From Phycisphaerae bacterium (GTDB lineage: Bacteria; Planctomycetota; Phycisphaerae; UBA1845), in the NCBI GenBank assembly GCA_029260235.1, contig JAJDDP010000119.1, forward strand, positions 1-64,000: 64,000 nt of DNA, in the 5' to 3' direction. Every line of letters starts with the position of its first letter. The stretch's first letter is position 1. The position numbers were made by a program, and so were the translations under genes. Shown here piece after piece: positions 15,193 through 36,359 of the stretch. Below the pieces are notes generated by a model, which searched no databases, had not been told where the DNA came from, and saw only the letters and a program-made list of their open reading frames with translations.

Positions 15193-15792
15193 ATGAATTC
15201 CCCGCCGCCTCTTGATCCTTCGGATGATGCCTTGTTCGCCCGCTTAGCCGACGGCGACCCCATGGCACTGCGTCCGTTGATGGATCGCTATGACCGGCTG
15301 GTGCGATTCACCATCTACCGCATGAGCCAGACCCGGGCTAGGCGCGATCCGCTTTGGCTCGACTCGGTTGCCTCTGAGGTGTGGACCGATCTCTGCCGCT
15401 CCCTCCGCACCTCGCCGGAGAAGAAAATCGATCACCCCGCAGCCTACCTGATCGAAATTTCGCGCCGCAGGTGCATCGACGCCCTTCGCAGGCGGAACGA
15501 AACCCCATCTCAGGGTGATCCCCACGAGGATCACTTCGCGCAAACGACTGCCAATGAAGAGGATACGGCAGACATGCTGGAACAGTCAGAGGAGTTGTCC
15601 GCCCTCCGAGACTGCACCCACGCCTTGGAGGGCGATGACGCTCGGCTCTGCAGTGAGTTGCCAGCCATCACCGCAGGTCGATGGCGAGAGGCTGGGGCAA
15701 AGCTAGATATGCCCGAATCCACGCTGCGATCCCGCTGGAAGAAGATCCTGGCACAACTCCGCTCATGCCTGGAAGGCAAGATGGACCGATAA
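15193..15792 (+). CDS. ECF-type RNA polymerase sigma factor
   Basis: The product has 199 residues. The N-terminal LFARLADGDPMALRPLMDRYDRLVRF segment and the region-2 end HPAAYLIEISRRRCIDALRRR (about residues 82-102) fit an ECF sigma factor. The region-4 helix-turn-helix appears as GAKLDMPESTLRSRWKKIL near residues 174-192. The linker is acidic and rich in Glu. It differs from the usual RpoE type, and resembles planctomycete-specific ECF groups. The next gene starts 128 bp downstream and encodes a short membrane protein with the size and topology of an anti-sigma factor, so the two may be a sigma/anti-sigma pair. Confidence 0.78.
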   Translation: MNSPPPLDPSDDALFARLADGDPMALRPLMDRYDRLVRFTIYRMSQTRARRDPLWLDSVASEVWTDLCRSLRTSPEKKIDHPAAYLIEISRRRCIDALRRRNETPSQGDPHEDHFAQTTANEEDTADMLEQSEELSALRDCTHALEGDDARLCSELPAITAGRWREAGAKLDMPESTLRSRWKKILAQLRSCLEGKMDR

Positions 15793-15920
15793 TAACTGCA
15801 CAACTTGACCTAAATCACATTAACGCGGGTTGGTGCGTTTTTCTTCGCGCCGTGGGCATTCAGGTGCGACTATCTAGATTGAGCGGACCAGAGGTGTCCG
15901 ATCTGCCCTGGAGTCGTCTG

Positions 15921-16346
15921 ATGAGTCAAGACAAATACACGCCCGACAACATCGAGAAGCTCCTGGCCGACGTGCAATCGGCTGAGGAGGCCGGTGTTTT
16001 TGGCCGTACTCTGGTGAGTCCGTCGGCTTTGGTTATACCCAAAGGCCAGCCGGCCAAGACGCGACGACATTGGGTCATCGGCCTGGAAATAGCAGCCTGT
16101 GCAGCCCTGCTCATCGGTGTCGGTAGTTTGTGGTCATTCGGCAACGGCTGGGGCAGCACGTCTGGGTCAGGCGGAAATCCGCCCATTGAGATGGCCGAGG
16201 CTCCCTGTTCCGACGTAGCCCTGCTGGTTCGCTGTGTCGGGGACGGCAGTGGAGCCGAGTGCCAATGCCTGGACGCTGATGACGATGGTGATGTCGATCT
16301 AGCCGATTTCGGATCGTATCAACGCTCGATTTCTCGGCAGAACTGA
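15921..16346 (+). CDS. Single-pass membrane protein with dockerin-like repeat, candidate anti-sigma factor
   Basis: ATG 15921 is preceded by GGAG at 7 nt; the longer frame from 15681 would overlap the sigma gene and is rejected. The 141-residue product has a cytoplasmic part of about 50 residues, one membrane helix at about 51-73, a Gly/Ser linker and an outer domain with four Cys (about residues 96-116). It ends in one EF-hand/dockerin-type loop, LDADDDGDVDLADFGSYQRS, at about 117-136. The layout matches a small membrane anti-sigma factor whose outer part could bind calcium or a partner. No zinc anti-sigma HxxxCxxC motif is present, so the regulatory role is inferred from position only. Confidence 0.65.
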   Translation: MSQDKYTPDNIEKLLADVQSAEEAGVFGRTLVSPSALVIPKGQPAKTRRHWVIGLEIAACAALLIGVGSLWSFGNGWGSTSGSGGNPPIEMAEAPCSDVALLVRCVGDGSGAECQCLDADDDGDVDLADFGSYQRSISRQN

Positions 16347-22884: not shown

Positions 22885-23370
22885 TCACTTAACGATAATG
22901 ATGGGCGTACTGATGACGTGCTTCCAGGTCCCCGGGTCAACCGCCATGCCTCCGTCTAGTGGAATCGCTGTAACCTCGACCCGGTGGATCGCGTTTCCGC
23001 ATTGCCCCTTGCCCACAAACATGACTGGAAAGAGGCCGTCCACTATCGGTTGCCCCGTGAGGATGGTCGCATCGAGGCTTATTGTGCCATTTCCCAACGT
23101 CTCATCAGTCAGCCAGCTGCCGGTACCCATGAATGACTGCCAGCCCGCGAACCGTGTCATCAGAAATCCCCACTCGATAGCGGACTGGGCCATGGCACGG
23201 GCTTTGACCGAGTCCTGGTTGTCTAGTGCGCCGCGGTGCTCCACACGGGCGATCGAGATTGAGCCGAGGCCAATGATGGTCACCAGCATAGCTGTGCTGA
23301 TCAACAAGACGTAGGTGGTTCCCAGACGCCGATGCCGCCCGGCCAACAAGCTGGATTTAGATCGATTCAT
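22885..23370 (-). CDS. PilX/GspK-like minor pilus assembly protein
   Basis: ATG 23370 has GAGG 6 nt upstream; the longer frame from 23511 is rejected. The 161-residue product starts with a basic stretch and one hydrophobic helix (TTYVLLISTAMLVTIIGLGS), then RARAMAQSAIEWG-type sequence seen in PilX- and GspK-like minor pilins that work with GspI/J. It lacks a clear class III prepilin site (no F-T-x-x-E). It is the last gene of the pilus cluster and probably initiates or caps the filament. Family assignment rests on topology, the AQSAIE motif and position. Confidence 0.6.
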   Translation of the reverse strand: MNRSKSSLLAGRHRRLGTTYVLLISTAMLVTIIGLGSISIARVEHRGALDNQDSVKARAMAQSAIEWGFLMTRFAGWQSFMGTGSWLTDETLGNGTISLDATILTGQPIVDGLFPVMFVGKGQCGNAIHRVEVTAIPLDGGMAVDPGTWKHVISTPIIIVK

Positions 23371-23407: not shown

Positions 23408-24985
23408 TTAGGGATTGCCATCGCAAATCGAGCCATCCCCTTCAGCGGTCTGCAAGGTTCCATCGCCGCAACAATATCTTCCCGACTGATTGCCGTTGAG
23501 CTCACTGTCACAGTCAGCCGAGCAGCTGTTGCAGTCTTCGCCCACCTCGCAGATTCCGTTACCGCACGCCGTGCCAGGTAGCAGACAAGTTACATCGGTT
23601 GAGCAATTGATGTCGGCGCAGTCGGTAGATCCGTCGCAGTCATTGTCTAGGCCGTCCGCACAGGTTGCACCTGCGACTTCAAATGATGGTGGAAGTCCGC
23701 AGTCATCAGGGCATGTGCAAGCGTTTTCGCCAGCGTCACAGGTCCCATCTCCACAGACCGCAGGCGGCGGATCACCAGCGCCTGCCGCCCATTCGATGGC
23801 GCGCTTCATCATTGCTTGGCCATCGCTGTTCAGCGAAGTGATGTCGAACACCGCTGTCCCCCACGGCAGCTGAACTCGACGGCCCGGAACAGGTGAACCG
23901 GTCCAAGCGGTAGACCCAGCTTCTAACACCACGAGAGAAGGATAGGCAATCGCGCCCATCGTAATCGTGTAGGCCAGGGGGGCATAATCTGGGCTTACAG
24001 TTCCGAATAGCGTGTAGACCGCTTGGGGCGAATCAAAGATGGTCAGCGCACTTATAGCCAAGTCGGTCGTGATATAGTGAGTGTTGTCAGTTACCTGTAC
24101 ATCGGATTGAGTTGTGGCCTTAGACGATTGGCAAAATCCAAGAATGTCCATCTGCTCTAAGTGCTCGTTCGCCACCCCGATATTCACGTTTTGCAACTTG
24201 GTCCCCAGATTGGCGCTACTCAAGTGCATGGAAAGGTAAACTGCATCGTTGAGGTTCATGGCCGACGTGAATGCGCCTGATGGGCCGTTGCATGCGATTC
24301 TGGTCACCTCAAATCCCCAGGCTAGAAATAGTGATTCGCGGGTAATTTCGTCTGCCAGGGGGAAATCAACATCGGTAACCACATAGAGCAGCCGAACGGT
24401 GGCGCCGGGCGGCTCTAGACCCGCCGTCCGCAATGCCTCAAGCGTAATGGAAACCCCATTCGAGTCGGTGGCCACCACGGTGATCAGCTTCATCCCCGCG
24501 TCTTCGCCAAACATTGCAGCACCAAACGTCCACGGATCAAGCAGCTTGATGCTGGCGGTTCGTGTCCAGCCATCCGCTCCGGGCAGCTGTGCGCCGGTAT
24601 TGTCGGTAGGCGGAGAAGACGACCATCCGTGGTAATCATCGCAATCGTCGAACTTCGACCGGTCACTGCCCAATTCGTCGGCCTCGGGGCCCGGCACCGG
24701 CAATTCCAAAAGCTGCCCGCTAGAGCGATAGGAGAATGTTGAACCACCTCCATTATCCGGGTCGGCGTACGGTTGCTGGCGGATTTCCTCCATGAGTGAT
24801 TGGGCCAGAATCATGCCCAGTTGCTGATTACTGCTGGAGCGGCGACCCATGCGCGATGCGCCGAGCGTATTCAATGAGGCGATCAGAAGCCCGCCGACCA
24901 CGCCGATGGAAATAACCGCTTCTGCCAAACTAAGGCTTCGGCGTCTCAAAGGGGAATCGTGTTGCCTGGGTTGCATGCGTGTCAT
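23408..24985 (-). CDS. Modular pseudopilin with GATase-like middle and Cys-rich MopE-like tail
   Basis: The 525-residue protein begins like a GspI/GspJ pseudopilin (RRRSLSLAEAVISIGVVGGLL, residues 14-34). It lacks the usual Gly or Ala before the cleavage point. Residues of about 190-400 have LLYVVTDVDF, ITRESLFLAWGFEVT, VTDNTHYITTD and GRRVQLPWGTAVFDI, which resemble ThuA/glutamine-amidotransferase-like domains found in planctomycete pilus proteins. The last 110 residues are Cys-rich, with CGDGTCDAGENACTC, a MopE-type DGLDNDCDGSTDCAD, and further C-x-x-C units. Its ATG overlaps the stop of the upstream gene by 4 nt. A calcium- or metal-binding tip adhesin is an inference; the domain chain is seen directly. 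Confidence 0.7.
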   Translation of the reverse strand: MTRMQPRQHDSPLRRRSLSLAEAVISIGVVGGLLIASLNTLGASRMGRRSSSNQQLGMILAQSLMEEIRQQPYADPDNGGGSTFSYRSSGQLLELPVPGPEADELGSDRSKFDDCDDYHGWSSSPPTDNTGAQLPGADGWTRTASIKLLDPWTFGAAMFGEDAGMKLITVVATDSNGVSITLEALRTAGLEPPGATVRLLYVVTDVDFPLADEITRESLFLAWGFEVTRIACNGPSGAFTSAMNLNDAVYLSMHLSSANLGTKLQNVNIGVANEHLEQMDILGFCQSSKATTQSDVQVTDNTHYITTDLAISALTIFDSPQAVYTLFGTVSPDYAPLAYTITMGAIAYPSLVVLEAGSTAWTGSPVPGRRVQLPWGTAVFDITSLNSDGQAMMKRAIEWAAGAGDPPPAVCGDGTCDAGENACTCPDDCGLPPSFEVAGATCADGLDNDCDGSTDCADINCSTDVTCLLPGTACGNGICEVGEDCNSCSADCDSELNGNQSGRYCCGDGTLQTAEGDGSICDGNP

Positions 24986-25542
24986 TGTTGTATGACCTGC
25001 TGCCCATCGGTGGTTGGCTCATTGAGGATCTGAACCGAAATCCGCGCTTCGAGCTGGACATCCTTCTTGGTTCTGATGAAGATGGTGGCACCTGTGAAGA
25101 CGTTTGTATCATTTCCTTGTTGGTCTTGACGGATGCCTTCGACAAGATTGAATTCCAAAACATCCACGTCTTCCAGAACGGCCACAGCGGCATCGCTGTT
25201 GTACTGTCGCATGAGCGGGCCGCCTGAGGATCCTCCCCAGTAGTAGCGAATGGTCTCATCGCCGACCGGACCATGGCTGCGATCCGCCACCGAGAAAGTC
25301 ATGTCCTCTTTCATGGGGTTGGTGAACGTGACGGCGTACTTGACTTCTGAGGCTATCTGGTCGAGCAGGTTGTGCAGCTCGATCAGCTGTTCCGGCGCGC
25401 TATCGCCAGCCGGTATCGTCTGAGCAGCTACGACCAAGGCTGATGTAAGTCCGCCCATCAGAATCACCATGATGAACATGCTGACCATCATCTCGGCGAG
25501 GGTAAATGCAGGCCTTCTGGTTCTCTTGGGATGACGATTCAT
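24982..25542 (-). CDS. GspJ/PilW-like pseudopilin
   Basis: Start ATG 25542 (MNRHPKRTRRPAFTLAEMM) is preferred to TTG 25584, since the basic leader then ends at the class III site PA-FTLAE with Glu at +5. GAGG lies 11 nt upstream. The 186-residue product has the long hydrophobic helix typical of type II/IV prepilins and a beta-rich C-terminal half. Minor pseudopilins of this kind form the tip complex of type II secretion and type IV pili. Its TGA overlaps the ATG of the modular pseudopilin (ATGA), showing tight coupling. Confidence 0.78.
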   Translation of the reverse strand: MNRHPKRTRRPAFTLAEMMVSMFIMVILMGGLTSALVVAAQTIPAGDSAPEQLIELHNLLDQIASEVKYAVTFTNPMKEDMTFSVADRSHGPVGDETIRYYWGGSSGGPLMRQYNSDAAVAVLEDVDVLEFNLVEGIRQDQQGNDTNVFTGATIFIRTKKDVQLEARISVQILNEPTTDGQQVIQQ

Positions 25543-25592
25543 TCGAATTTGTTCCTCTTCCAATCTTCTGGAAGGCACTCTCAACTCAGAGC

Positions 25593-26069
25593 CTATGGCC
25601 CAACGCTCGCCTTGCCGGTATCGGCGTCAAGCGTAACGGTCATCGCTCGGCTTCCTGAGCTGATCTTGATCGTGCCCCCAGAATCAGGCAGGCCATACCC
25701 ATCGAAGATGACTGCCGTAGTACCACCGAAATCCGCCTTCACCGCGCGTAGGCGGTAAGGCTCCTCGGACAATTCTACGGTATAGGTGTTGCCTGATCGG
25801 TCCAGGTCCGCTACTCCGAACAATAGGTATGATCTGCCGACCTGATCGAAGCTGACCATCTGGTTTGCTCCGGTGGTACGGGCATTCCTGCGGGCGTAGT
25901 CGAGATCAGCCACGATGCGGTAGGCAGCTACCTCTGCCCGATAATTAGACATGCTCGAAGCCGCCCGGGGGGCAGCAATCGCCGTGAACAGGCCAATGAT
26001 CAGCAGGACGACGACCAATTCCGCGAAGGTGAAGGCTCTGATTCTCTGGTTGATTCGCAACATGCTCAT
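25593..26069 (-). CDS. GspH-like pseudopilin
   Basis: The 158-residue protein has the class III site A-FTFAELVVV with Glu at +5, a hydrophobic helix, and a beta-rich remainder with AEVAAYRIVADLDYARRNAR and VGP at the end, as in GspH/FimT minor pseudopilins. It would sit near the filament tip. Genes flank it with gaps under 60 bp, in the same orientation as the rest of the pilus cluster. The homology call rests on site, size and order. Confidence 0.8.
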   Translation of the reverse strand: MSMLRINQRIRAFTFAELVVVLLIIGLFTAIAAPRAASSMSNYRAEVAAYRIVADLDYARRNARTTGANQMVSFDQVGRSYLLFGVADLDRSGNTYTVELSEEPYRLRAVKADFGGTTAVIFDGYGLPDSGGTIKISSGSRAMTVTLDADTGKASVGP

Positions 26070-26077
26070 ACTTCCGG

Positions 26078-26608
26078 TTACTTGATCATGGCTGCTCCAC
26101 CGGCGTCTTTCATCGGTATCTCCGCCAGATCTGCTGCCGTCGCGTTGATTCCGAACTCTCCGGTAGAAAGGACCGCCACCCAGCCACTGGATCCAGCGAT
26201 GACCGGACTGGTGGGCGTGAGTATTACCCTGACGGTGTCCAGGTCATTCAATGGGTTCGTCGGGAATGGTGGGCGCAGGTAGGGCCCGAATATATAGGGA
26301 GACCCGTAGGTCGTGCTTACGTTTCCATTTTGATCACTGAATTCCATCAGTTGTCTGGGGAACATGGCGTTCTCCGGCGAGCCCGAGCTCGGGTTGTATC
26401 CAGGGTACTTTCCGTGCTCTGCCTCGTAGATTGCCATTGCCCGTGTCACTGTCGCTATGTTTGATTCAACAGAAGTACCCACAGCTGACGAAATGGCGGA
26501 ACTAAACCGAGGTGCTGCAATGGCTGCTATGATGCCGATGATCACCACCACGATGACAAGCTCGACCAAGCTGAATGCACGCCGGGCTGCACTGCTCTGT
26601 CCGGTCAT
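26078..26608 (-). CDS. GspG-like pseudopilin
   Basis: The 176-residue protein has the class III site A-FSLVELVIVVVIIGI with Glu at +5 and a GspG-type stretch MAIYEAEHGKYPGYNP near residue 55. The C-terminal part is beta-rich and Gly/Ser-rich. It is the second of two GspG-like proteins here; the first ends 160 bp upstream behind a terminator. One may be the main fibre subunit and the other a variant or minor one. Prepilin peptidase is not encoded in the window. Confidence 0.85.
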   Translation of the reverse strand: MTGQSSAARRAFSLVELVIVVVIIGIIAAIAAPRFSSAISSAVGTSVESNIATVTRAMAIYEAEHGKYPGYNPSSGSPENAMFPRQLMEFSDQNGNVSTTYGSPYIFGPYLRPPFPTNPLNDLDTVRVILTPTSPVIAGSSGWVAVLSTGEFGINATAADLAEIPMKDAGGAAMIK

Positions 26609-26765: not shown

Positions 26766-27254
26766 CTAGTAGTCCACATAGTCCGTGCCGGCTTCGTCGG
26801 CGGCGGTTCCGGTGTTGGCGCTAATGTTTCCGGTGCCTTCGATGTAGATCCAACCCACCGTGGCTGCGTCCGCCGCTGCAGCCACCGTGTCACCGATGGC
26901 TCCCCCTGTAGTGCCGACACCGGCGATGGGCAAACCGGGAACAGCTTTTAGGTACGGACCGAAAATATGCGTCGCATCTTTGGTGGCGACTGTAGCGCCA
27001 GCCTCATCAGAGTAGGTCGTCAACATGTTTACGAAGGCAGCTACGGTCGGAAAGTTCCCGCCATGCTCTGCTGAGTACAGCTCGATCGCATTGCGCATCA
27101 CAGCCAAGTTGCCACGGAGGGATGCGTCGCGGGCGCCCTTGGCACCTCGGCTCAACCGAGGTACGGCGATGGCGGCTATGACGCCGATGATGACGATGAC
27201 GATGACCAATTCGACGAGACTGAAACCTCGGAGTCTGCGGTGAAAACGATGCAT
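26766..27254 (-). CDS. GspG-like major pseudopilin
   Basis: The 162-residue protein has a canonical site G-FSLVELVIVIVIIGV with Glu at +5. GGGGG precedes ATG 27254 by 9 nt. The GspG-type IELYSAEHGGNFP segment is near residue 52, and the rest is Ala- and Gly-rich. A hairpin terminator follows it and about 96 bp with a TAAAAT -10-like box precedes it, unlike the tightly packed neighbours. That pattern fits a strongly expressed main subunit. It is the only pseudopilin here with Gly before the cleavage site; others have Ala. Confidence 0.88.
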   Translation of the reverse strand: MHRFHRRLRGFSLVELVIVIVIIGVIAAIAVPRLSRGAKGARDASLRGNLAVMRNAIELYSAEHGGNFPTVAAFVNMLTTYSDEAGATVATKDATHIFGPYLKAVPGLPIAGVGTTGGAIGDTVAAAADAATVGWIYIEGTGNISANTGTAADEAGTDYVDY

Positions 27255-27350: not shown

Positions 27351-27899
27351 TCAATCAGAAGTATCAGAAACCATCAATTCTGCACGGTTCTCGCCATTCT
27401 TGAAAACGGCAATGCGTCCGGTAATGTCGGCGAGTTTCCAGCCATCGACGACGTCGCCGATATTAACCCACCTCCCATCCAAGACTGCGATGTTTACACT
27501 TGCTCCGTGGATTACCGCCTCGAGCTTGTGGCTGGCGGAGAATTCGTCGGCAGAGATCCGTTGAGCCTGCTGCTTGCCGCTGCGAGGTCCTTCAGGACCA
27601 TCTTCTGCTGTGATCAGTCGCATCGATTTGAGGACGGAAGGGGTCAGCTGAAACGCGTCCCGGAGATCGACTGCAGGCCGAGCTATTAGGCCGTTCGGAA
27701 ACGCCTGAGGGGTTACTGCCACTGCATCCTCGCCATGAGCGGTTGAAGATTGGGCAGGGCCGGTGTTGCTGTCCGTGGCGGGCCGCGTTGGGGAAGCAGC
27801 TGCCGACGACGGTTCGCTGAAGACAAAGCGATCAAGCAACAAGGCCAAGAATCCAAAGGCCAGGAGTGCCGCGTAAAGTTTCTTCTTCTTTGGGTCCAC
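27351..27899 (-). CDS. PilP/GspC-like inner-membrane pilus protein
   Basis: The start GTG 27899 directly follows the TAA of pilO. The 182-residue product has one N-terminal membrane helix (LYAALLAFGFLALLLDRFVF), a Pro/Ala/Ser-rich linker, and a C-terminal domain with LEAVIHGASVNIAVLDGRWVNIGDVVDGWKL, a pattern typical of the PilP/GspC homology region that binds the secretin. It is in PilM-N-O-P order. No PilQ secretin is found next to it, so it may act with one encoded elsewhere. Confidence 0.7.
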   Translation of the reverse strand: MDPKKKKLYAALLAFGFLALLLDRFVFSEPSSAAASPTRPATDSNTGPAQSSTAHGEDAVAVTPQAFPNGLIARPAVDLRDAFQLTPSVLKSMRLITAEDGPEGPRSGKQQAQRISADEFSASHKLEAVIHGASVNIAVLDGRWVNIGDVVDGWKLADITGRIAVFKNGENRAELMVSDTSD

Positions 27900-28466
27900 T
27901 TATTGTTCCGTCGACTCTTCTTCCGCCTTATCCGCTGCGGAGTAGAAACTGAAGGTCAAATCCGCCCGCTTGTTTTGGGTGACTTGGGGGTCGGCAGATG
28001 CCATTTTCAAAAAAGTTACGTCTGCCCACGAAGATGATTGCTGAAAATCGTCCAGGAACTGAACATAGTCGTTGAACGTGCCGCTGGTGGTCATCTTGTA
28101 ACGCAATTCTTGGATGCCAGGATACTGGTATGCCCCCAGAGGCATCAGGCCAGCCACCTGCAGGCCATTCTTGCGGGCCAATTCACTCAATTGCCTCAGC
28201 TCTCGTTCGACGGGAGTGGCCTGAGGGAGGAAGTCGCTTTCCCCGACAGTATCCTGGCGTTCATGCCCCGCGTCCGTTTTTCGACGGATCGCTTCGTCCA
28301 TCCGAGACTGCATATCTTCAGCATGGCGGACTTCCTGATTGAGCGCATGGAGGGTCTTTGCCGTTGCTCCGGTGCCATAGAACGAAAACCAAAAACTTGT
28401 CCCGAGGCAGGCAGCCACCGAGAGTGCACCGGCAATATCGATCATGACGACTGAGTTTAGTTTCAT
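27900..28466 (-). CDS. pilO: PilO-like pilus assembly protein
   Basis: The product starts MKLNSVVMIDIAG with AGGA just upstream; ATG 28478, which overlaps the stop of the previous gene as TAATG, is also possible. One membrane helix is followed by a coiled-coil segment (about residues 35-70) and a ferredoxin-like domain with ELRQLSELARKNGLQV and FNDYVQFLDDFQQ, as in PilO. PilN and PilO form the inner-membrane alignment subcomplex with PilM. The call rests on order and fold pattern. Confidence 0.78.
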   Translation of the reverse strand: MKLNSVVMIDIAGALSVAACLGTSFWFSFYGTGATAKTLHALNQEVRHAEDMQSRMDEAIRRKTDAGHERQDTVGESDFLPQATPVERELRQLSELARKNGLQVAGLMPLGAYQYPGIQELRYKMTTSGTFNDYVQFLDDFQQSSSWADVTFLKMASADPQVTQNKRADLTFSFYSAADKAEEESTEQ

Positions 28467-28477
28467 CGTTCCTGCCA

Positions 28478-29089
28478 TTACCAAGTACAGGTCAGCTCAA
28501 AGTGAACCGCTCGTGACCGAAGTACATCCTGGCGTTCGGCGCGGACCAGCTCGACATAGTCAAATGCTCCCGACGCCTTGAGCCGGGCCATGAATTCGTA
28601 CAGATCATCATGGTCTATGGCATAGCCATCCAACATGAATGCACGAGCCCCAGCCAGAACCGTGAGTCCTTGGGTCGGCTCGTCTTTAGAGGCGGGTGGC
28701 CGCCCGGCTGGACGCGAGGGAGCCTGGGGCGTTTCGGTCGCCATGGTGGTCAACCACACCTCAGACGGCATTTCTTGGGAGATCATGGCCAAGAACGAGG
28801 CCCAGGATCGTTTGGTCCGCAGTGCATTGGCCCGCTCGATTTGCTCTACCAACTGGTCAAATTCGCCAATGACGTCTGCCAGTTCGATGCGGGCGGAGGC
28901 GATCCTAATTGCCAAGTCGGCATTCTTGCGCCGAAGGCGATTGGCTACCGACTCCTGGTGAATTTGCCAACTGATCGGAATTGCCGTCACGATTGCTGCC
29001 AACGTAAGGGCCAAACCCCAGCGGCGCAGGTGGCGCGCTCGGCGCTGACCTTCCATAATCGGCGGTGGAATCAGGTTGATACCGATCAC
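28478..29089 (-). CDS. pilN: PilN-like pilus assembly protein
   Basis: The start is GTG at 29089, because GGAG is 8 nt upstream and the GTGA overlaps the stop of pilM by 4 nt. The longer frame from 29323 overlaps pilM and is rejected. The 203-residue product begins with the classic VIGINLIPPP segment of PilN/GspL-like proteins, then one membrane helix at about residues 24-42, a coiled coil and a ferredoxin-like domain. PilN binds PilM through its INL motif. A Pro-rich insert with RPAGRPPAS occurs near residue 125. Confidence 0.88.
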   Translation of the reverse strand: MIGINLIPPPIMEGQRRARHLRRWGLALTLAAIVTAIPISWQIHQESVANRLRRKNADLAIRIASARIELADVIGEFDQLVEQIERANALRTKRSWASFLAMISQEMPSEVWLTTMATETPQAPSRPAGRPPASKDEPTQGLTVLAGARAFMLDGYAIDHDDLYEFMARLKASGAFDYVELVRAERQDVLRSRAVHFELTCTW

Positions 29090-30228
29090 AGATCTATCTC
29101 CGGATCCAAGGCTAACCCAATGGCACCCAGGTAAGTGCTCATTGGTTTCTCTGCCCGGCCGCCAACTGCGTAGGACGCACGTGCCGAGCACCCCTGCTCC
29201 AGAAACGCGTTGGCTGGTTCGACCGGTATTCCGAGTCGATTTTCCAGATAATGATCCAAATTGTGCATTGTGGATCCCCCCCCCGAGAGCACCAGGAAAC
29301 CCACCGACCGACCACGATAACACTGAAGGGCATACTCGTACGAACGCTCGATTTCTCCAACGAGATGGTCAAGCTCAGTCCGCAGCGCCGTCAAGATAAG
29401 GGCGGACAACTCATCAAGGCCGCCGCTGCTATGCTGAACCTCAAGGCCCGTACCCGGCGAGGTTGCGGTCTTGGGCTTGGTGATCCCATGATCCAGCTTG
29501 TGCGTTTCGGCTGCGCCGGTACTCACTTGGAGCGACTTGGCAATCAACTCTGTCCAATGGATTCCGCCTGCGCCCAACGAGCGAACCAGAATCGGGGTTC
29601 GATCCACACACAAGATCAAACGGCAGCCTCGTGCTCCGATATCCAGGATACCCCACACTGATTCTGGGGCCCCAGGCCTCATTAGAGCTACTGCCCGTGC
29701 TAGGGCGCATGCTGTGGCATCTACTCGGCTGCATTCCATCTTGGCCTGGCTGCACGCCTGCCAAATCTGGGTGACCATGGACACAGCCGTCGCTACGCCT
29801 ATGGCGCTGCAAGCGTGACCCTGCGTCTTGGGCAACCGCCAATGAGCGGTCTGGATCTCTTGCCCTCCCATGCTGCAGAGACGTTCGATTTCCCAGTGGG
29901 CAGCCGATCCAAACTGATCTTGCCCCATCGAATCTCCGGCTTGGGGAAGTTCCAGGGCATGTAATTCAACGTCCGGCGCCGAGAGGCCTACCACGACTTC
30001 CCTGCCGATGAATTCCTGCTCCCAAGCCGCTCGATTTAGGCGCTCCGTAACGGTACTGCATACGCCGTCGATGCCCGCTCCGGGAGGAATCTGCCAGGTC
30101 GATGCCCGCAGGACCACCCAACGGGACCCGCTTCGTTGCAGCTGGACTGCGCGCACCGCCGCCGCACCGATATCCAATCCGATGGGCGTTATTTTCGCAG
30201 TCCGTTTTGACTTAACAGCGGGTCTCAT
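29086..30228 (-). CDS. pilM: PilM-like actin-fold pilus assembly protein
   Basis: Start ATG 30228 has GGAG 6 nt upstream. The 380-residue protein has an actin/FtsA-like ATPase fold: GLDIGAAAVRAVQL (phosphate 1, about residue 17), LDIGARGCRL (phosphate 2, near 193) and LSGGGSTM (adenosine motif, near 318). It would sit on the cytoplasmic side and dock PilN. Its stop overlaps the pilN start by 4 nt, and gspF ends 8 bp upstream. A Thr/Lys-rich insertion lies near residue 240. Confidence 0.92.
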   Translation of the reverse strand: MRPAVKSKRTAKITPIGLDIGAAAVRAVQLQRSGSRWVVLRASTWQIPPGAGIDGVCSTVTERLNRAAWEQEFIGREVVVGLSAPDVELHALELPQAGDSMGQDQFGSAAHWEIERLCSMGGQEIQTAHWRLPKTQGHACSAIGVATAVSMVTQIWQACSQAKMECSRVDATACALARAVALMRPGAPESVWGILDIGARGCRLILCVDRTPILVRSLGAGGIHWTELIAKSLQVSTGAAETHKLDHGITKPKTATSPGTGLEVQHSSGGLDELSALILTALRTELDHLVGEIERSYEYALQCYRGRSVGFLVLSGGGSTMHNLDHYLENRLGIPVEPANAFLEQGCSARASYAVGGRAEKPMSTYLGAIGLALDPEIDL

Positions 30229-30236
30229 CAAGGCTC

Positions 30237-31466
30237 CTACTGGGTCATCGAGGTGATGTCGAACATCGGCAAGAATAGCGAGATCGCCACCGCACCGACG
30301 ACAACTCCCATCAGAATGATGATGGCTGGTTCGATCAACCGCGTGACCGCGCCGACCAGCTCAACATTGTCTTCGTCGAGGATGTCAGCCGCATAGCTGA
30401 TCGCTCCTCCGAGATTGCCGCTCTCTTCCCCCGTGCGAACAGCTTGGCAAAGTGCAGGGGCGACTAAGTTGGAGGACTCCATCGCGTCGCTCAACATATT
30501 GCCGGAGGTGACGGCATTTTCCATTCGATCAAACAATATCTGGAAGCGGTTGTTCTTCGTTACCCGTCGGGTCAATTCCAGCGCCTCAAGGACTGCGACA
30601 TGGGCCTCGAGCAGCATGCCCAAGGTGCGGAAGACCTGTCCTTGAATCAGGCTGGTCGCCAGCCTTCCGAGCACTGGAATCTGAGTTTGCATGTTGATGC
30701 AGGTCCGCCGACCCGCCGAAGAGATCGCCAGGAACACCACTCCAGCGAGCAGCGTTCCCACGCCGATCACCACCAGCACCCAATTGCCTCTGAGGAACCC
30801 AGACAGGTCAAGCATGAGCTTGGTTGAAGAGGGCAGCGGTGCTCCCAATGACGCGAACATCTCTCCGAAGCGAGGCAAGACAAAGAACAGGAGCACATTC
30901 ACCTGGGCGGTGGCAAGCCCCATCAACAGCACCGGATAGGTCATCGCCCCCAGCACTTTGTTACGGAGAGCCCGGCGCTTGCCGATGATCTGGCTCAGCC
31001 GATCAAACATTTCAGGAAGCGTCGCACTAGATTCGCCTGCCGCGATGATAGCGCAATAAGATGCATCGAACACTCTTGGAAAGCGGCACATGGCCTCCCC
31101 CAACATCGCTCCCTCTTCCAAATCGTCGCGCAATTGGCGAATCATCTCGACATGCTTGGGATGCTTCATTTGCCGCCCTATGGCTGCCAAGGCGGGGACG
31201 AGTGCGCTCCCACTCTTGAGCAACATGGACATCTGCCGGGTGAAGAGAAGCAATTGCTTTAGCGGAAGTTTGAACTCCGCAGTCCAGCCCTCGGCGAGCT
31301 GCACCTTTTTCTCGACCTCATGGACCGTGGCTTCGGTGATGTTGGTCACCATGAGGCCCTTTTGGCGCAACTGTTCAACGGCCGCTTTGGACGAGTCAGC
31401 CATGATCAGATCACGGACCGGTTTTCCGCTGGTGTCGATCGCTTCGTAGGTCAGACTCAAACTCAT
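30237..31466 (-). CDS. Type II secretion/type IV pilus platform protein (GspF/PilC family)
   Basis: The 409-residue protein has the duplicated GspF fold. The N-terminal cytoplasmic half begins YEAIDTSGKPVRDLI and has LLLFTRQMSMLLKSGSALVPAL, and the second copy has QGQVFRTLGMLLEAHVAVLEAL. Three membrane helices are visible (about residues 168-190, 212-235 and 380-402). It forms the inner-membrane platform on which the ATPase works. It starts three bases after the GspE stop, with GGAGG 8 nt before its ATG. Confidence 0.93.
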   Translation of the reverse strand: MSLSLTYEAIDTSGKPVRDLIMADSSKAAVEQLRQKGLMVTNITEATVHEVEKKVQLAEGWTAEFKLPLKQLLLFTRQMSMLLKSGSALVPALAAIGRQMKHPKHVEMIRQLRDDLEEGAMLGEAMCRFPRVFDASYCAIIAAGESSATLPEMFDRLSQIIGKRRALRNKVLGAMTYPVLLMGLATAQVNVLLFFVLPRFGEMFASLGAPLPSSTKLMLDLSGFLRGNWVLVVIGVGTLLAGVVFLAISSAGRRTCINMQTQIPVLGRLATSLIQGQVFRTLGMLLEAHVAVLEALELTRRVTKNNRFQILFDRMENAVTSGNMLSDAMESSNLVAPALCQAVRTGEESGNLGGAISYAADILDEDNVELVGAVTRLIEPAIIILMGVVVGAVAISLFLPMFDITSMTQ

Positions 31467-31469
31467 TGC

Positions 31470-33239
31470 CTAAGCCTCCACCTCATGGGACGCCATGCCG
31501 CTGGGGTCACAAACCGAAATCGCTTCTGCCCGGGTAACCCGGAGAACTTCCTCCAAGGTCGAATCTCCCCGATTTACGACTTCCAGCGCCTTTTCCCGCA
31601 AGGTCTGCCATCTGGTTTGGGCAAGATAGGTCCGAATGTCGATCTCACTCCCGCCTTCCTCGATGAGTCGTTTCAGCTCTGCATCCAGAACCATGACCTC
31701 GTAGATCCCTACCCTGCCCTTGAACCCGGTGTTGTGGCAAGACTGACATCCTTCGCCTTTGCTAAATAATTCGTTGCTGCGATCCTCCCAACCGACCGAC
31801 TCTAGAAGTTGCGAAGATGGGTAGTACGAGGTCTTGCACGAGGGACAGATCTTCCGGGCCAACCGCTGGGCGATGAACCCCAGAACACTCGAGCTGATCA
31901 GGTACGGTTCGATCCCCATGTCCAATAGACGGGCAATTCCGCCCGGGCAGTCGTTGGTGTGCAGCGTGCTCAGCACCAAGTGCCCCGTTAGAGCGGCTTG
32001 AACCGCGACACGGGCAGTATCCGTGTCCCGAATTTCTCCGACCATGATGATGTCGGGATCCTGCCGAAGTATGGAACGCAAAGCCCGAGTAAAATCCAAG
32101 CCTACCTGAGAATTCACTTGGATCTGGTTGATCTGGCCCAATTGATATTCGACTGGATCTTCTACGGTGACGATGTTGACCGACTCGCTCCTGAGCAGAT
32201 CAAGTGCCGAATACAAGGTGGTTGTCTTACCACTACCGGTGGGTCCAGTGACCAACAACAATCCGTAAGGACTTCTCAGCATCGCCTCGATGGCTGTCCG
32301 GTCTTGGTTGAGGACGCCTAGATCCCCAAGCTCGAAGCTGAGGTTGGTCTTATCCAGGATGCGGAGAACCATTTTTTCGCCCAGGATGGTGGGCATGCTG
32401 GAGACGCGCAGGTCTATTTCTCGGCCGTCAGCAACCAGATGCACTCGGCCTTCCTGTGGTAGTCTCTTCTCCGAGATATCCATTCTGCCAATCACCTTGA
32501 TCCTTGAGATGATGGCTGCGTGAATGTTCTTCGGGGGCGATAGCAGGTCGCGGAGTTGGCCGTCGATCCGGTACCGAATGTGGGTCGTGCCGCGCTCGGG
32601 TTCGATATGAATGTCGGATGCACCCTCTCTAAGCGCGGTCAAGATGGCCAGGTTCACCAGGTTGATCACCGGCGAACCGTCAATCATCTTGTCGAGGTCG
32701 GTGACAGGCCCTTCGTCGATCGCCTCAGATTCTGAGATGGTAACGTCGGCTTCCTCCATCGAGGCGAGGAAAGCGTCGACGGTGACTTCCTGTTGAAGAT
32801 ACTTCCGTTGATACTCCTCGATGTTCTCTTCTAGGCAAAGCACGGGCCTGATCTGGCAGCCTGTCAACAAGCGAAGTCGGTCGAGCACGGGCAACGACTG
32901 CGGCTCAACCATGGCGACGGTCAGGGTTTGCCCTCCGTCGTGCCGGTCGCTGACTCGGAACAGGGGCAGCACCATCAGCCGCTCAGCCTCTTCCTTTGGG
33001 ATGCACTTGGCGACCTTGGGATCAATCAGGCCGTGTCGCAACACGCAGCCAAGCACGCCCAGACGCCGTCCCAGAGCAGACACCAAGGAGGCTGAGTTAA
33101 TCGCCCCGATGTCCATGAGCGCAGAACCCAACTTCGCTCCGCTGCCCTGCTGTTTAGACAGCGCATCGGTCAGCTGATCTTCGGTGATCAGCCCATCAGC
33201 GATGAGCTGCTCGCCAAGTCTAGCAGCTTGTCCGATCAT
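31470..33239 (-). CDS. Pilus/type II secretion assembly ATPase (GspE/PilB family)
   Basis: The 589-residue protein has an N-terminal MshEN-type domain (about residues 1-140, a possible c-di-GMP-binding region), then the GspE core. Walker A GPTGSGKT is at 332-339, the Asp box is DPDIIMVGEIRD, the His box is STLHTND, and the zinc knuckle CPSC with CQSC lies near 470-510. The N-terminal domain resembles the c-di-GMP-binding domains of MshE-like ATPases, which fits the signalling genes next to it. A retraction ATPase is not seen. Confidence 0.94.
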   Translation of the reverse strand: MIGQAARLGEQLIADGLITEDQLTDALSKQQGSGAKLGSALMDIGAINSASLVSALGRRLGVLGCVLRHGLIDPKVAKCIPKEEAERLMVLPLFRVSDRHDGGQTLTVAMVEPQSLPVLDRLRLLTGCQIRPVLCLEENIEEYQRKYLQQEVTVDAFLASMEEADVTISESEAIDEGPVTDLDKMIDGSPVINLVNLAILTALREGASDIHIEPERGTTHIRYRIDGQLRDLLSPPKNIHAAIISRIKVIGRMDISEKRLPQEGRVHLVADGREIDLRVSSMPTILGEKMVLRILDKTNLSFELGDLGVLNQDRTAIEAMLRSPYGLLLVTGPTGSGKTTTLYSALDLLRSESVNIVTVEDPVEYQLGQINQIQVNSQVGLDFTRALRSILRQDPDIIMVGEIRDTDTARVAVQAALTGHLVLSTLHTNDCPGGIARLLDMGIEPYLISSSVLGFIAQRLARKICPSCKTSYYPSSQLLESVGWEDRSNELFSKGEGCQSCHNTGFKGRVGIYEVMVLDAELKRLIEEGGSEIDIRTYLAQTRWQTLREKALEVVNRGDSTLEEVLRVTRAEAISVCDPSGMASHEVEA

Positions 33240-33301: not shown

Positions 33302-33637
33302 TCAAATAAAACTGCGGGCAGCCGAAGAACTATCTTCAAAGAACTGGAAGCGAGACGACAAACCGGTCAACTCCAAAATCTCGCGGCAAGTTGAACCAAC
33401 AGCTACGAGTTTCAGCCGGTTGCCCTGATCCATCAGTTCGTCCGCGGCGGTAATCAGCACATCCAAGCCTTGCGAATCCATGTAGGGAACATTCTGCAGC
33501 GAGATGGCTACGCGCGGGTTGGGATGGTTCAAGTGCACCATTAGAGCATCCGCAAACTGGGTTGCATCTTCATCCGCCAGTGCTCCTTGAGGACTTAGCA
33601 CTGCAACCGTGCCGACTTCCTGCATCTCGATCTTCAT
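33302..33637 (-). CDS. STAS-domain (anti-anti-sigma-like) protein
   Basis: Start ATG 33637 has GGAG 7 nt upstream and its ATGA overlaps the stop of the preceding gene; the longer frame from 33733 is rejected. The 111-residue product is a lone STAS domain: MQEVGTVAVLSPQG, VAISLQNVPYMDSQGLDVL with the phosphorylatable Ser-type site at MDSQGLDVL near residue 56, and NRLKLVAVG. Such proteins switch partners by Ser phosphorylation. No RsbW-type kinase gene is near. It may be a switch protein for the pilus operon. Confidence 0.83.
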   Translation of the reverse strand: MKIEMQEVGTVAVLSPQGALADEDATQFADALMVHLNHPNPRVAISLQNVPYMDSQGLDVLITAADELMDQGNRLKLVAVGSTCREILELTGLSSRFQFFEDSSSAARSFI

Positions 33638-34983
33638 GACTTGACTCCGGCGGTTGCTATCACCGAGGCACTTGTCTCGGGCGACGCCACATCGCTGAGC
33701 AAAGCTACGTTCCTGGCCCGGGCCTCGTGGCACCGGTTGATGGCCCGCGAAATCAATTCTCTAAGCGGTGGCTGTTCTGTGCCGCTGCCAGACACCCCGC
33801 AGCGCACAACGAGCGGAACTCGCCAACGGTCTCCGTCGCTGCACAGGTCGCTGAACGACTTATGCAGCTGCTCGATGATCAGTGCGCCTAGGGCTGAGTC
33901 CACGCGGCGCAGCAGAACCACAAACCTGGAATCATCGAACCGGCCTATGCAGTCATCAGTCCTGACGCGCTCACCCAATAAGAGGGCGGCCTCTGCGGCC
34001 AGAGCATCCGCTAGATCCCAATCTCCTCGGTCACAGAGTAAGCGAATGCCTTCCACCGCCACGATGCCAACCGCAACAGGCTCATTGTGTACATAGGCGG
34101 CCGAGAGTGTGCGGTCAGCTTCGAATAAAAAGGACTCGCGCGCAAGCAGTCCCGACAAAGGATCTCTAATCTCAGCCGTGCGACGTCGGCAAACTTCTCC
34201 AAGCGTTACCCAGAACGAGGAAACTATGTTTTGAGCAAGGGTCAGCATTTCCGGATCGCACGCAGCCCCGGCACTTAGGCTACCTATTTTTAGCAGTCCG
34301 ATTCGCCGCGTACCTTGGCTGATCGCGAAGCACCAAGCCACCGGCTCGCCTGATTGACGGGCGAGCTGATCGACCAGCTCACCGTGGGCTTGCTCGTTCT
34401 CGACATAGGCCCGCCCCGTGGTGGCCACATGTCCAACAATTCCACAGCGTGCCGAATCAATATCCATCAGTTCTCCTGGACCAATGGCCCGGAGAGGAAC
34501 CAGGGCGTCGTCCTCACTGAGAATTCTGTAGGGGTGAACGTGCGTCGCCCCGGTTAATCGGTTCAGGGCGATACGCAGAAACTCGCCGAACTCAGGCCAT
34601 GGATCTTCCGAGTGGCGGTGGGCTTCGAGCCAATCGTCGAAGGCAAGGAATGTTTCGGTCAAGCCTCCGACGTAACTGTGTTTGGAAGATGCCTCCTCGG
34701 CCATCGCCGAGTCGGGTACATCGCTTACCCCAGAATTTGGCTCGCCCCGGTCCGTCGAAGACCAAGCGCCGATGGCTGCAATGGCCACCGCGCCCGACGA
34801 CAAGGCCAAGAGCGTCCAGGCGTCTAGGAAGGTCTCCACGTCACCCTCTGCGAATACCAATACAAGCCAGAATGTAGCGCCGAGCACTCCGAACCACACA
34901 CCCCGTGTCGGGAGCACCAGCCTGGCGCCGACGCCCACGGCCAATACGATGGGGAACCAAAGCAAGATCAAGGACATACTCAT
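33634..34983 (-). CDS. Membrane GAF protein with degenerate GGDEF domain
   Basis: ATG 34983 overlaps the stop of the HD-GYP gene (ATGA), so it is preferred to 35001. Three membrane helices (about residues 3-80) precede a linker, a GAF domain (about 125-270, with HVATTGRAYVENEQ and RRIGLLKIGSL) and a GGDEF-type domain that begins IRDPLSGLLARESF. The active-site GGDEF reads GRFDDSRF, so it is probably not a cyclase; it may bind nucleotide or other partners. A second member, the HD-GYP phosphodiesterase, is directly upstream. Confidence 0.8.
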   Translation of the reverse strand: MSMSLILLWFPIVLAVGVGARLVLPTRGVWFGVLGATFWLVLVFAEGDVETFLDAWTLLALSSGAVAIAAIGAWSSTDRGEPNSGVSDVPDSAMAEEASSKHSYVGGLTETFLAFDDWLEAHRHSEDPWPEFGEFLRIALNRLTGATHVHPYRILSEDDALVPLRAIGPGELMDIDSARCGIVGHVATTGRAYVENEQAHGELVDQLARQSGEPVAWCFAISQGTRRIGLLKIGSLSAGAACDPEMLTLAQNIVSSFWVTLGEVCRRRTAEIRDPLSGLLARESFLFEADRTLSAAYVHNEPVAVGIVAVEGIRLLCDRGDWDLADALAAEAALLLGERVRTDDCIGRFDDSRFVVLLRRVDSALGALIIEQLHKSFSDLCSDGDRWRVPLVVRCGVSGSGTEQPPLRELISRAINRCHEARARNVALLSDVASPETSASVIATAGVKS

Positions 34984-36359
34984 CCTGGATTCCTTCCGCA
35001 TTGGTGACTCCGGGTCGCGTTCACCGGCGCCCCGAGCGTACTGCCCTTGTCAATTCGGCTTGCAACTTGGATGCGTTTGAAATGATCAGGCTCATTCTCC
35101 GCCAAGTTGCGAATTAAACCGGTGAAGATCGTCGCCAATTCTGGATCGATCGTGCTGCCTGCTTCTTCGGCAATGATTTCCAATGCCTTGGGCCAGTCGA
35201 ACGCCCTACGATAGGATCGGTTGGACGTCAAAGCGTCGAAGATGTCGGCCACTTGAACGATTCGAGCCTGCCGCGGGATGTCCTGGCCGGCAAGACCGCT
35301 CGGGTAACCTTTGCCGTTCCACTTCTCGTGGTGATGCATAACTCCATCCAAGGCATCAGCCAGCTGGGGTATCTCTCGGACCACCTCATAACTGCGCACC
35401 GGATGTTCCTTGATGTGCTCAAATTCCTCGTCTGTGAGCTTCCCCTCTTTCTTGAGCACTGCGTCTCGGATGCCAATCTTCCCCACGTCGTGCAGCAGGG
35501 CGGACCACTCCAGCATCTGGAGTTCCTGGGCATCCAACCCCACCGCCCGTCCGAGCATGACCGCATAGATCGCCACGCGCGATGTATGCCCCGAAGTGTA
35601 TTCGTCCTTTTGTTCGATCGCGTTGGTCAACGCCTCAACAACGTTCACCGACAGATTTCGCAGCTCAGCCACAAGACGAAAATTGCGAATCATGTCGCCA
35701 CAGAAAGCGGTGAGCGACTCGAGAAGCGACATGTCACTTGCTTCAAAAGGACGGAACGAACCTGACTTGGTATCTGACGGCCCATGGGTTAGCAGCAAGA
35801 CCACAACCAGCGAGTCTCCGGCATAGACCGGGCCGGAGATCAGCCGTAGCACGGGCGGCTCATCGCTGCAGGGGTGCGCACAATGATTGCAGTGTGGCAG
35901 GTCACCCTCGATGCGGGATTCTGGGCAATCCTTCACGATCAACCGCCTCGTGGTGATACTTTCCTCCACCGCCTCTACTATCCAGTCGTGCCGAGGTACG
36001 TCTCCGTCGAAATTCAACGAATCGGCAGTCCCGGCGCACTTCACAACGGCGATGCGCGTGTGTGGGTAGGTGACGCGAAGACTCTTGGTGAAAAGTTGAA
36101 GGACTGCCTCCTCATCGTGCAAGGTGGGCAATTGGCGGGTAACTTCGAACACAATGCCCAATTGCTCATACGCCCGAAGAAGCTCATCAGCCATCCCCGT
36201 ATGCTCGGTGACGATGTTTTGAACCTGCTGATCCAGCACATCGAGTCGCTCATGGAATTCGATATCCGTGTCGGGCAAAGCGTGGGCAGTCGTCGCCCGC
36301 AACGCGCTCAAGGCCCCCTGCACGGTTCCCTCTATTGAGTCGCTTGCACAATCCGCCAT
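34980..36359 (-). CDS. GAF/HD-GYP phosphodiesterase
   Basis: The 459-residue protein has a GAF-like domain at about residues 60-235 and a C-terminal HD-GYP domain at about 240-430. The metal HD is in LLHDVGKIGI (His290-Asp291), and the signature HHEKWNGKGYP follows near residue 342. HD-GYP domains degrade cyclic di-GMP. A three-Cys cluster (Cys157, Cys160, Cys164) in HCNHCAHPC within the GAF part may bind a metal or a cofactor. The product lowers c-di-GMP next to a pilus operon. Confidence 0.9.
   Translation of the reverse strand: MADCASDSIEGTVQGALSALRATTAHALPDTDIEFHERLDVLDQQVQNIVTEHTGMADELLRAYEQLGIVFEVTRQLPTLHDEEAVLQLFTKSLRVTYPHTRIAVVKCAGTADSLNFDGDVPRHDWIVEAVEESITTRRLIVKDCPESRIEGDLPHCNHCAHPCSDEPPVLRLISGPVYAGDSLVVVLLLTHGPSDTKSGSFRPFEASDMSLLESLTAFCGDMIRNFRLVAELRNLSVNVVEALTNAIEQKDEYTSGHTSRVAIYAVMLGRAVGLDAQELQMLEWSALLHDVGKIGIRDAVLKKEGKLTDEEFEHIKEHPVRSYEVVREIPQLADALDGVMHHHEKWNGKGYPSGLAGQDIPRQARIVQVADIFDALTSNRSYRRAFDWPKALEIIAEEAGSTIDPELATIFTGLIRNLAENEPDHFKRIQVASRIDKGSTLGAPVNATRSHQCGRNPG

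Follow-up and report, generated by a model that had tools for sequence, protein, structure and literature searches.

The window, which is the whole 64,000-nucleotide stretch that was analysed (contig JAJDDP010000119.1 of a Phycisphaerae bacterium), holds on its minus strand a type IV filament operon with the gene order E-F-PilM-PilN-PilO-G-G-H-J-I-K. The first genes encode an assembly ATPase with MshEN and T2SSE domains (31470..33239; Pfam E value = 2e-139), a GspF/PilC inner-membrane platform protein (30237..31466; Pfam T2SSF, E value = 4e-45) and PilM (29086..30231; Pfam PilM_2, E value = 2e-18). These are followed by a PilN-position gene recognised from its ORF and from the operons of relatives, with an inferred start (28478..29089), by a PilO-like gene whose Pfam PilO match lay under the cut-off (27900..28484; E value = 0.003), and by a conserved gene in the PilP position that gave weak matches only and is kept in the operons of relatives (27351..27899). 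The remaining genes encode pilins, namely, a GspG-like major pilin (26766..27254), a second GspG-like pilin (26078..26608), an H-type (GspH) minor pilin (25593..26069; Pfam GspH, E value = 3e-7), a J-type minor pilin that is plain here (24982..25584), a modular I-type minor pilin of 525 residues (23408..24985) and a short form of the K/PilX-type minor pilin, for which the ATG at 23370 is the likely start (22885..23370). PilM-, PilN- and PilO-like genes thus take the place of GspL and GspM in this operon. The operon genes tested include neither a secretin nor a retraction ATPase of the operon's own; the source genome has four secretins and 11 T2SSE-family ATPase matches, with the secretins and several of the ATPases encoded elsewhere than in the operon, and several type IV filament systems coexist in it.

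The gene for the 525-residue protein, in the I (GspI/PilV) position, is a single intact ORF with an ATG start (24985..23408). The position and length given in a preliminary description of the locus were correct, to which the minus strand is now added. The gene and the J pilin gene upstream of it share the sequence ATGA, in which the ATG of the former (24985-24983) and the TGA of the latter (24984-24982) overlap, and the ORFs adjoining the gene overlap it at both ends. Within the H-J-I-K minor-pilin cluster, which is conserved throughout the order, it comes third, and a complete J-I-K cluster was present at 56 loci of related genomes.

Three modules in one reading frame

Relatives of the 525-residue protein were sought in 100 related genomes, and matches were obtained in 85. 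The matches fell into three blocks with separate distributions, corresponding to residues 1 to 190, about 190 to 405 and about 405 to 525, so that all three parts of what had been described as a pseudopilin with two grafted modules were indeed present. Two other genomes encode residues 11 to 525 in one open frame at 43 to 44% identity (E values of 7e-112 and 2e-111), which indicated that the protein is neither a frameshift product nor an accidental fusion. A tail derived from a frameshifted neighbour had been named beforehand as one finding that would overturn the description, and the overlaps with the adjoining ORFs could be taken to favour such a chance joining of a pilin to an unrelated neighbour; given the single-frame homologues, the combinations of pilin with middle domain, with or without the tail, in many further genomes and the separate, conserved recurrence of each of the three modules in many genomes, this explanation was rejected as having practically no chance of being right. 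As a separate observation, two genomes (G009, loci L037 and L066; G043, loci L038 and L067) each have two H-J-I-K clusters, with one I pilin carrying the middle domain and the tail and the other carrying the middle domain alone.

The first module (24416..24985, minus strand; residues 1 to 190) consists of a leader, a hydrophobic helix and a complete pilin domain. I-type orthologues occur throughout the order, and the I-slot pilins of most other genomes end soon after residue 190, which places the extra modules, both found independently elsewhere, C-terminal to the pilin fold. The prepilin N-terminus reads ...LRRRS/LSLAEAVISIGVVGGLL, with the leader junction RRRS/LSLAE, Ser at position -1 and Glu at position +5. 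The lack of Gly or Ala before the cleavage point had been pointed out correctly, and the residue is not unusual for the group: Ser occupies this position in 8 of 75 orthologous pilins, and the idea that it marks a non-pilin was rejected on that ground. Orthologues in the same slot match Pfam N_methyl. The 525-residue protein itself gave a weak match to NCBIfam PilV (E value = 0.017); because its type_IV_pilV score of 15.6 bits lies below the curated cut-off of 52.2, and with the gene lying between J- and K-type minor pilin genes of a filament operon, we refer to it as an I-position pilin and not as a formal GspI or PilV.

The second module (23768..24418, minus strand; residues about 190 to 405), here termed MID, is an unnamed domain that was aligned in a narrower set of 36 sequences (A1) and a broader set of 30 sequences (A3). 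Gly81, His114, Ile116, Arg180, Val182 and Trp210 (numbered from residue 190) are invariant in the 36-member alignment. None of its members matched a relevant Pfam family, with no match to ThuA (PF06283) at an E value of 1, and a profile search with MID matched no PDB chain. Comparison of alignment A3 with a 25-sequence ThuA alignment by hhalign gave a probability of 81.9 over 178 co-linear columns. Among the controls, reversed profiles scored 0.3 or less, ten operon families 0.6 or less and 60 block-permuted ThuA profiles 40.7 or less, with the highest of these on 16 columns. The narrower alignment A1 reached a probability of only 5.0 against ThuA, and MID matched neither a small ThuA alignment nor GATase1_like (PF07090). 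A ThuA-like fold is therefore likely for MID, which differs from the ThuA family in having no Pfam-level match and in occurring as a part of pilins and of other extracellular proteins. Of the earlier reading of this block as resembling ThuA or an amidotransferase, the likeness to ThuA was supported, whereas an amidotransferase in the catalytic sense was not. Class I glutamine amidotransferases need a catalytic Cys nucleophile, and since no Cys is conserved in either A1 or A3, MID is not an amidotransferase. Modelled by AlphaFold as a single sequence, MID reached a pLDDT of 32.5.

A phylum-wide profile search found MID in 12 of 293 other genomes, partly in proteins that are not pilins. Viral contigs contained no relative. 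Among the non-pilin proteins (loci L104, L106, L107, L108 and L110) are a secreted protein bearing LamG-like repeats, another secreted protein that resembles sugar dehydrogenases and a protein-kinase-like protein. MID may represent an unnamed domain family of wide occurrence, which the present alignments could serve to define.

The third module (23411..23770, minus strand; residues 406 to 525) is an acidic tail whose 120 residues include 18 Cys and a single basic residue but neither His nor Trp. It contains the motifs DGLDNDCDG and CGDGTC/CGNGIC, ends in ...EGDGSICDGNP and, at residues 439 to 467, matches a single repeat of the acidic double-disulfide family NCBIfam NF033662 (E value = 2e-6), at 27.2 bits against a cut-off of 41. 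With the same or nearly the same ending, this module also stands at the very C-terminus of seven other I pilins and of five proteins of the secreted type, among them Peptidase_S8 and reprolysin-like proteins. In another group, the J pilins carry three consecutive shorter repeats of it. We class the tail as a generic module of secreted proteins. Its use as the C-terminus of secreted proteases, like the trading of modules among three neighbouring minor pilins described below, goes beyond the preliminary description. The secreted proteins at loci L074 to L078 (among them subtilases and a reprolysin-like protease) share a Cys-rich C-terminus of the form ..RYCCGNG..EGDG.ICDGNP, and L082 has related repeats with another ending; such C-termini are possibly an unnamed sorting or anchoring module. 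AlphaFold modelling of the tail together with two stretches of one locus gave a pLDDT of 39.5.

The suggestion that the tail might bind copper in the manner of MopE did not survive. The copper site of MopE is made of two His residues and a Trp-derived kynurenine (PMC3423442), and the tail cannot hold such a site because it has neither His nor Trp. What it shares with the MopE-type putative metal-binding motif and with NF033662 is an acidic loop of the DxDNDCDG type between disulfide-type Cys residues; it differs from them in scoring below the curated cut-off and in being common to secreted proteases of the same lineages. Calcium would be a likelier ligand than copper, as the DNDCDGSTD loop resembles a calcium-binding acidic loop.

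Exchange of modules among the I, J and K pilins

The search for the middle block in related genomes, proposed in the preliminary description, located MID on all three kinds of neighbouring minor pilin, with 17 I-type, 16 J-type and 12 K/PilX-type hosts; six further hosts were other proteins or fragments. At least 10 changes of slot were needed in the best MID tree, few branches of which had strong support. The manner of attachment depended on the host. On I-type pilins, MID follows a complete pilin, and on K-type pilins LamG domains or a YWTD propeller come after it. On J-type pilins, it mostly interrupts the pilin just ahead of the last strand; the segment that ends plain J pilins was recognised after the insert in most MID-bearing J pilins (E values of 1e-9 to 1e-3) but not in controls.

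Other modules occupy the same slots elsewhere in the order. The I slot holds LamG (PF13385; E values of 1e-24 to 1e-26) at loci L049, L064 and L196 and PKD at L198 (E value = 4e-17), with L199 and L213 reading similarly; the K slot holds CBM_4_9 at L189 (E value = 3e-17) and LamG or a YWTD propeller in other genomes; and the J slot holds an unnamed beta-rich insert at L042 and L202. In the tree of pilin cores, the nearest relatives of the protein from the window were those at L064 and L196 (support of 87), which have LamG in place of MID and tail. As far as these architectures tell, the I, J and K slots are interchangeable and accept alternative modules, most of which are known ligand binders.

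The unnamed beta-rich insert (about 190 to 240 residues) precedes the last strand in the J pilins of most genomes (L042, 5422-6579; L202, 2437-3537; L195, 3990-5654), and some of these J pilins have a further C-terminal domain. At L045, L047, L048 and L053, the J pilins are about 770 to 840 residues long and combine MID with three repeats of the tail and an additional beta-domain; they have apparently lost the last pilin strand, and the I pilin at these loci carries a large insert after residue ~80.

A probable modular minor pilin and its competing readings

We favor the view that the 525-residue protein is probably a modular, tip-displayed minor pilin of a type IV filament of the T4P/T2SS-like kind, bearing a grafted binding head. 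The leader would be cleaved after Ser, and the N-terminal helix would build the pilin module into the I position of an H-J-I-K tip complex, so that the ThuA-like domain and the Cys-rich tail would be displayed outside the filament end. There they would act as a ligand-binding head, either adhesive or sensing, in a slot that relatives appear to fill interchangeably with ThuA-like, LamG, PKD or CBM modules on I, J or K. Such a head at the tip is suggested mainly by the alternative modules of the slot, which are mostly known ligand binders, and the adhesive tip entertained in the preliminary description accordingly emerges as the likeliest reading. Both a surface pilus and a periplasmic pseudopilus are compatible with an operon that lacks its own secretin and retraction ATPase in a genome with four secretins and several T2SSE-family ATPases encoded elsewhere.

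The strongest competitor, which we regard as unlikely, is a T2SS pseudopilus whose grafted modules stay in the periplasm or the secretin channel and either recognise exoproteins or plug the secretin, replacing the bulky GspK domain that is missing from the short K. Secreted proteases with the same tail do occur in these lineages, and in T2SS it is GspK that carries a bulky extra domain at the pseudopilus tip (PMC6211770, PMC8179133). Moreover, among 53 clusters, K was short at 13 of the 15 loci with an enlarged I and at 2 of the 38 loci with a plain I, one of these two being cut by a contig end, and the sizes of I and K were inversely related over 56 loci (rho = -0.61). Bulk may thus have moved from K to I; however, the relation is tied to ancestry, no more than two independent contrasts being supported (sign test, P value = 0.5), and shared ancestry could underlie the pattern. 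A pseudopilus is disfavored by the LamG, PKD and CBM modules, which occupy the same slots and suggest extracellular ligands, and by the operon genes, which are of the PilM/N/O type and not of the GspL/M type.

It is rather improbable that MID is instead an enzyme of the ThuA or keto-sugar type borne on the filament, with the tail as a spacer. The profile similarity to ThuA and the invariant His114 and Arg180 are consistent with such a function, but the overall similarity is weak, a conserved catalytic Cys is missing and the slots in which MID lies are filled by binding modules in relatives. Still more doubtful is the idea that the tail serves as a recognition or docking element of the filament machine and is for that reason found on both the tip pilin and the proteases; the tip pilin would then mimic or capture substrates, with the ThuA-like domain replacing the GspK cap.

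The protein with its probable binding head fits the established class of modular pilins. In Streptococcus sanguinis, the modular pilins PilB, with a vWA module, and PilC, with a lectin module, have been shown experimentally to be tip pilins that bind ligands, and a census in 2021 counted more than 1,200 modular pilins in 264 architectures, more being expected by its authors since many modules lack a database signature (PMC8179133, PMC9934059). As in PilB and PilC, a non-pilin module is grafted after the pilin module of a minor pilin, and the concanavalin-like lectin of PilC has a counterpart in the LamG domains at loci of the same architecture here. In contrast to the S. sanguinis pilins, modules here are common to, and swapped among, three neighbouring minor pilins (I, J and K) of one conserved cluster, the module in question is an unnamed, non-Pfam, ThuA-like domain followed by a Cys-rich tail, and the operon is presumably of the diderm type; ligand binding, experimentally established there, is predicted here. 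Likewise, the H, J, I, K gene order follows the logic of the T2SS tip complex, of which the I-J pair is the core (PMC6211770). GspK has an alpha-domain inserted in its pilin fold (PMC8179133), and an extra domain is similarly inserted into the pilin fold here, in J; the inserted domain is nevertheless ThuA-like and not an alpha-domain, the bulk lies on I (and J) with a short K, and the operon contains PilM/N/O. What appears to be new is the module itself, unnamed and ThuA-like, its presence on three adjacent minor pilins and its combination with a secreted-protein tail; among the open-access papers searched, none describes such a pilin.

The locus is a case of the kind that the census foresaw, in which modules have no database signature (PMC8179133), and within a single bacterial order, unnamed, lectin-like and PKD or CBM modules are traded among three pilin positions of one cluster. 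The composition of the tip thereby becomes a comparable and testable trait, in terms of which slot holds which module for which ligand, in bacteria for which attaching to surfaces and polysaccharides is ecologically important.

Two further features of the window were recorded. Directly upstream of the filament operon and on the same strand lie STAS-like, GGDEF and HD-type genes (33302-36359, minus strand), which makes control of the operon by c-di-GMP or by a partner switch possible. At 15681-16346 on the plus strand, an ORF that overlaps a sigma-factor-like gene encodes a hydrophobic segment followed by a dockerin/EF-hand-like end (DADDDGDVDLADF).
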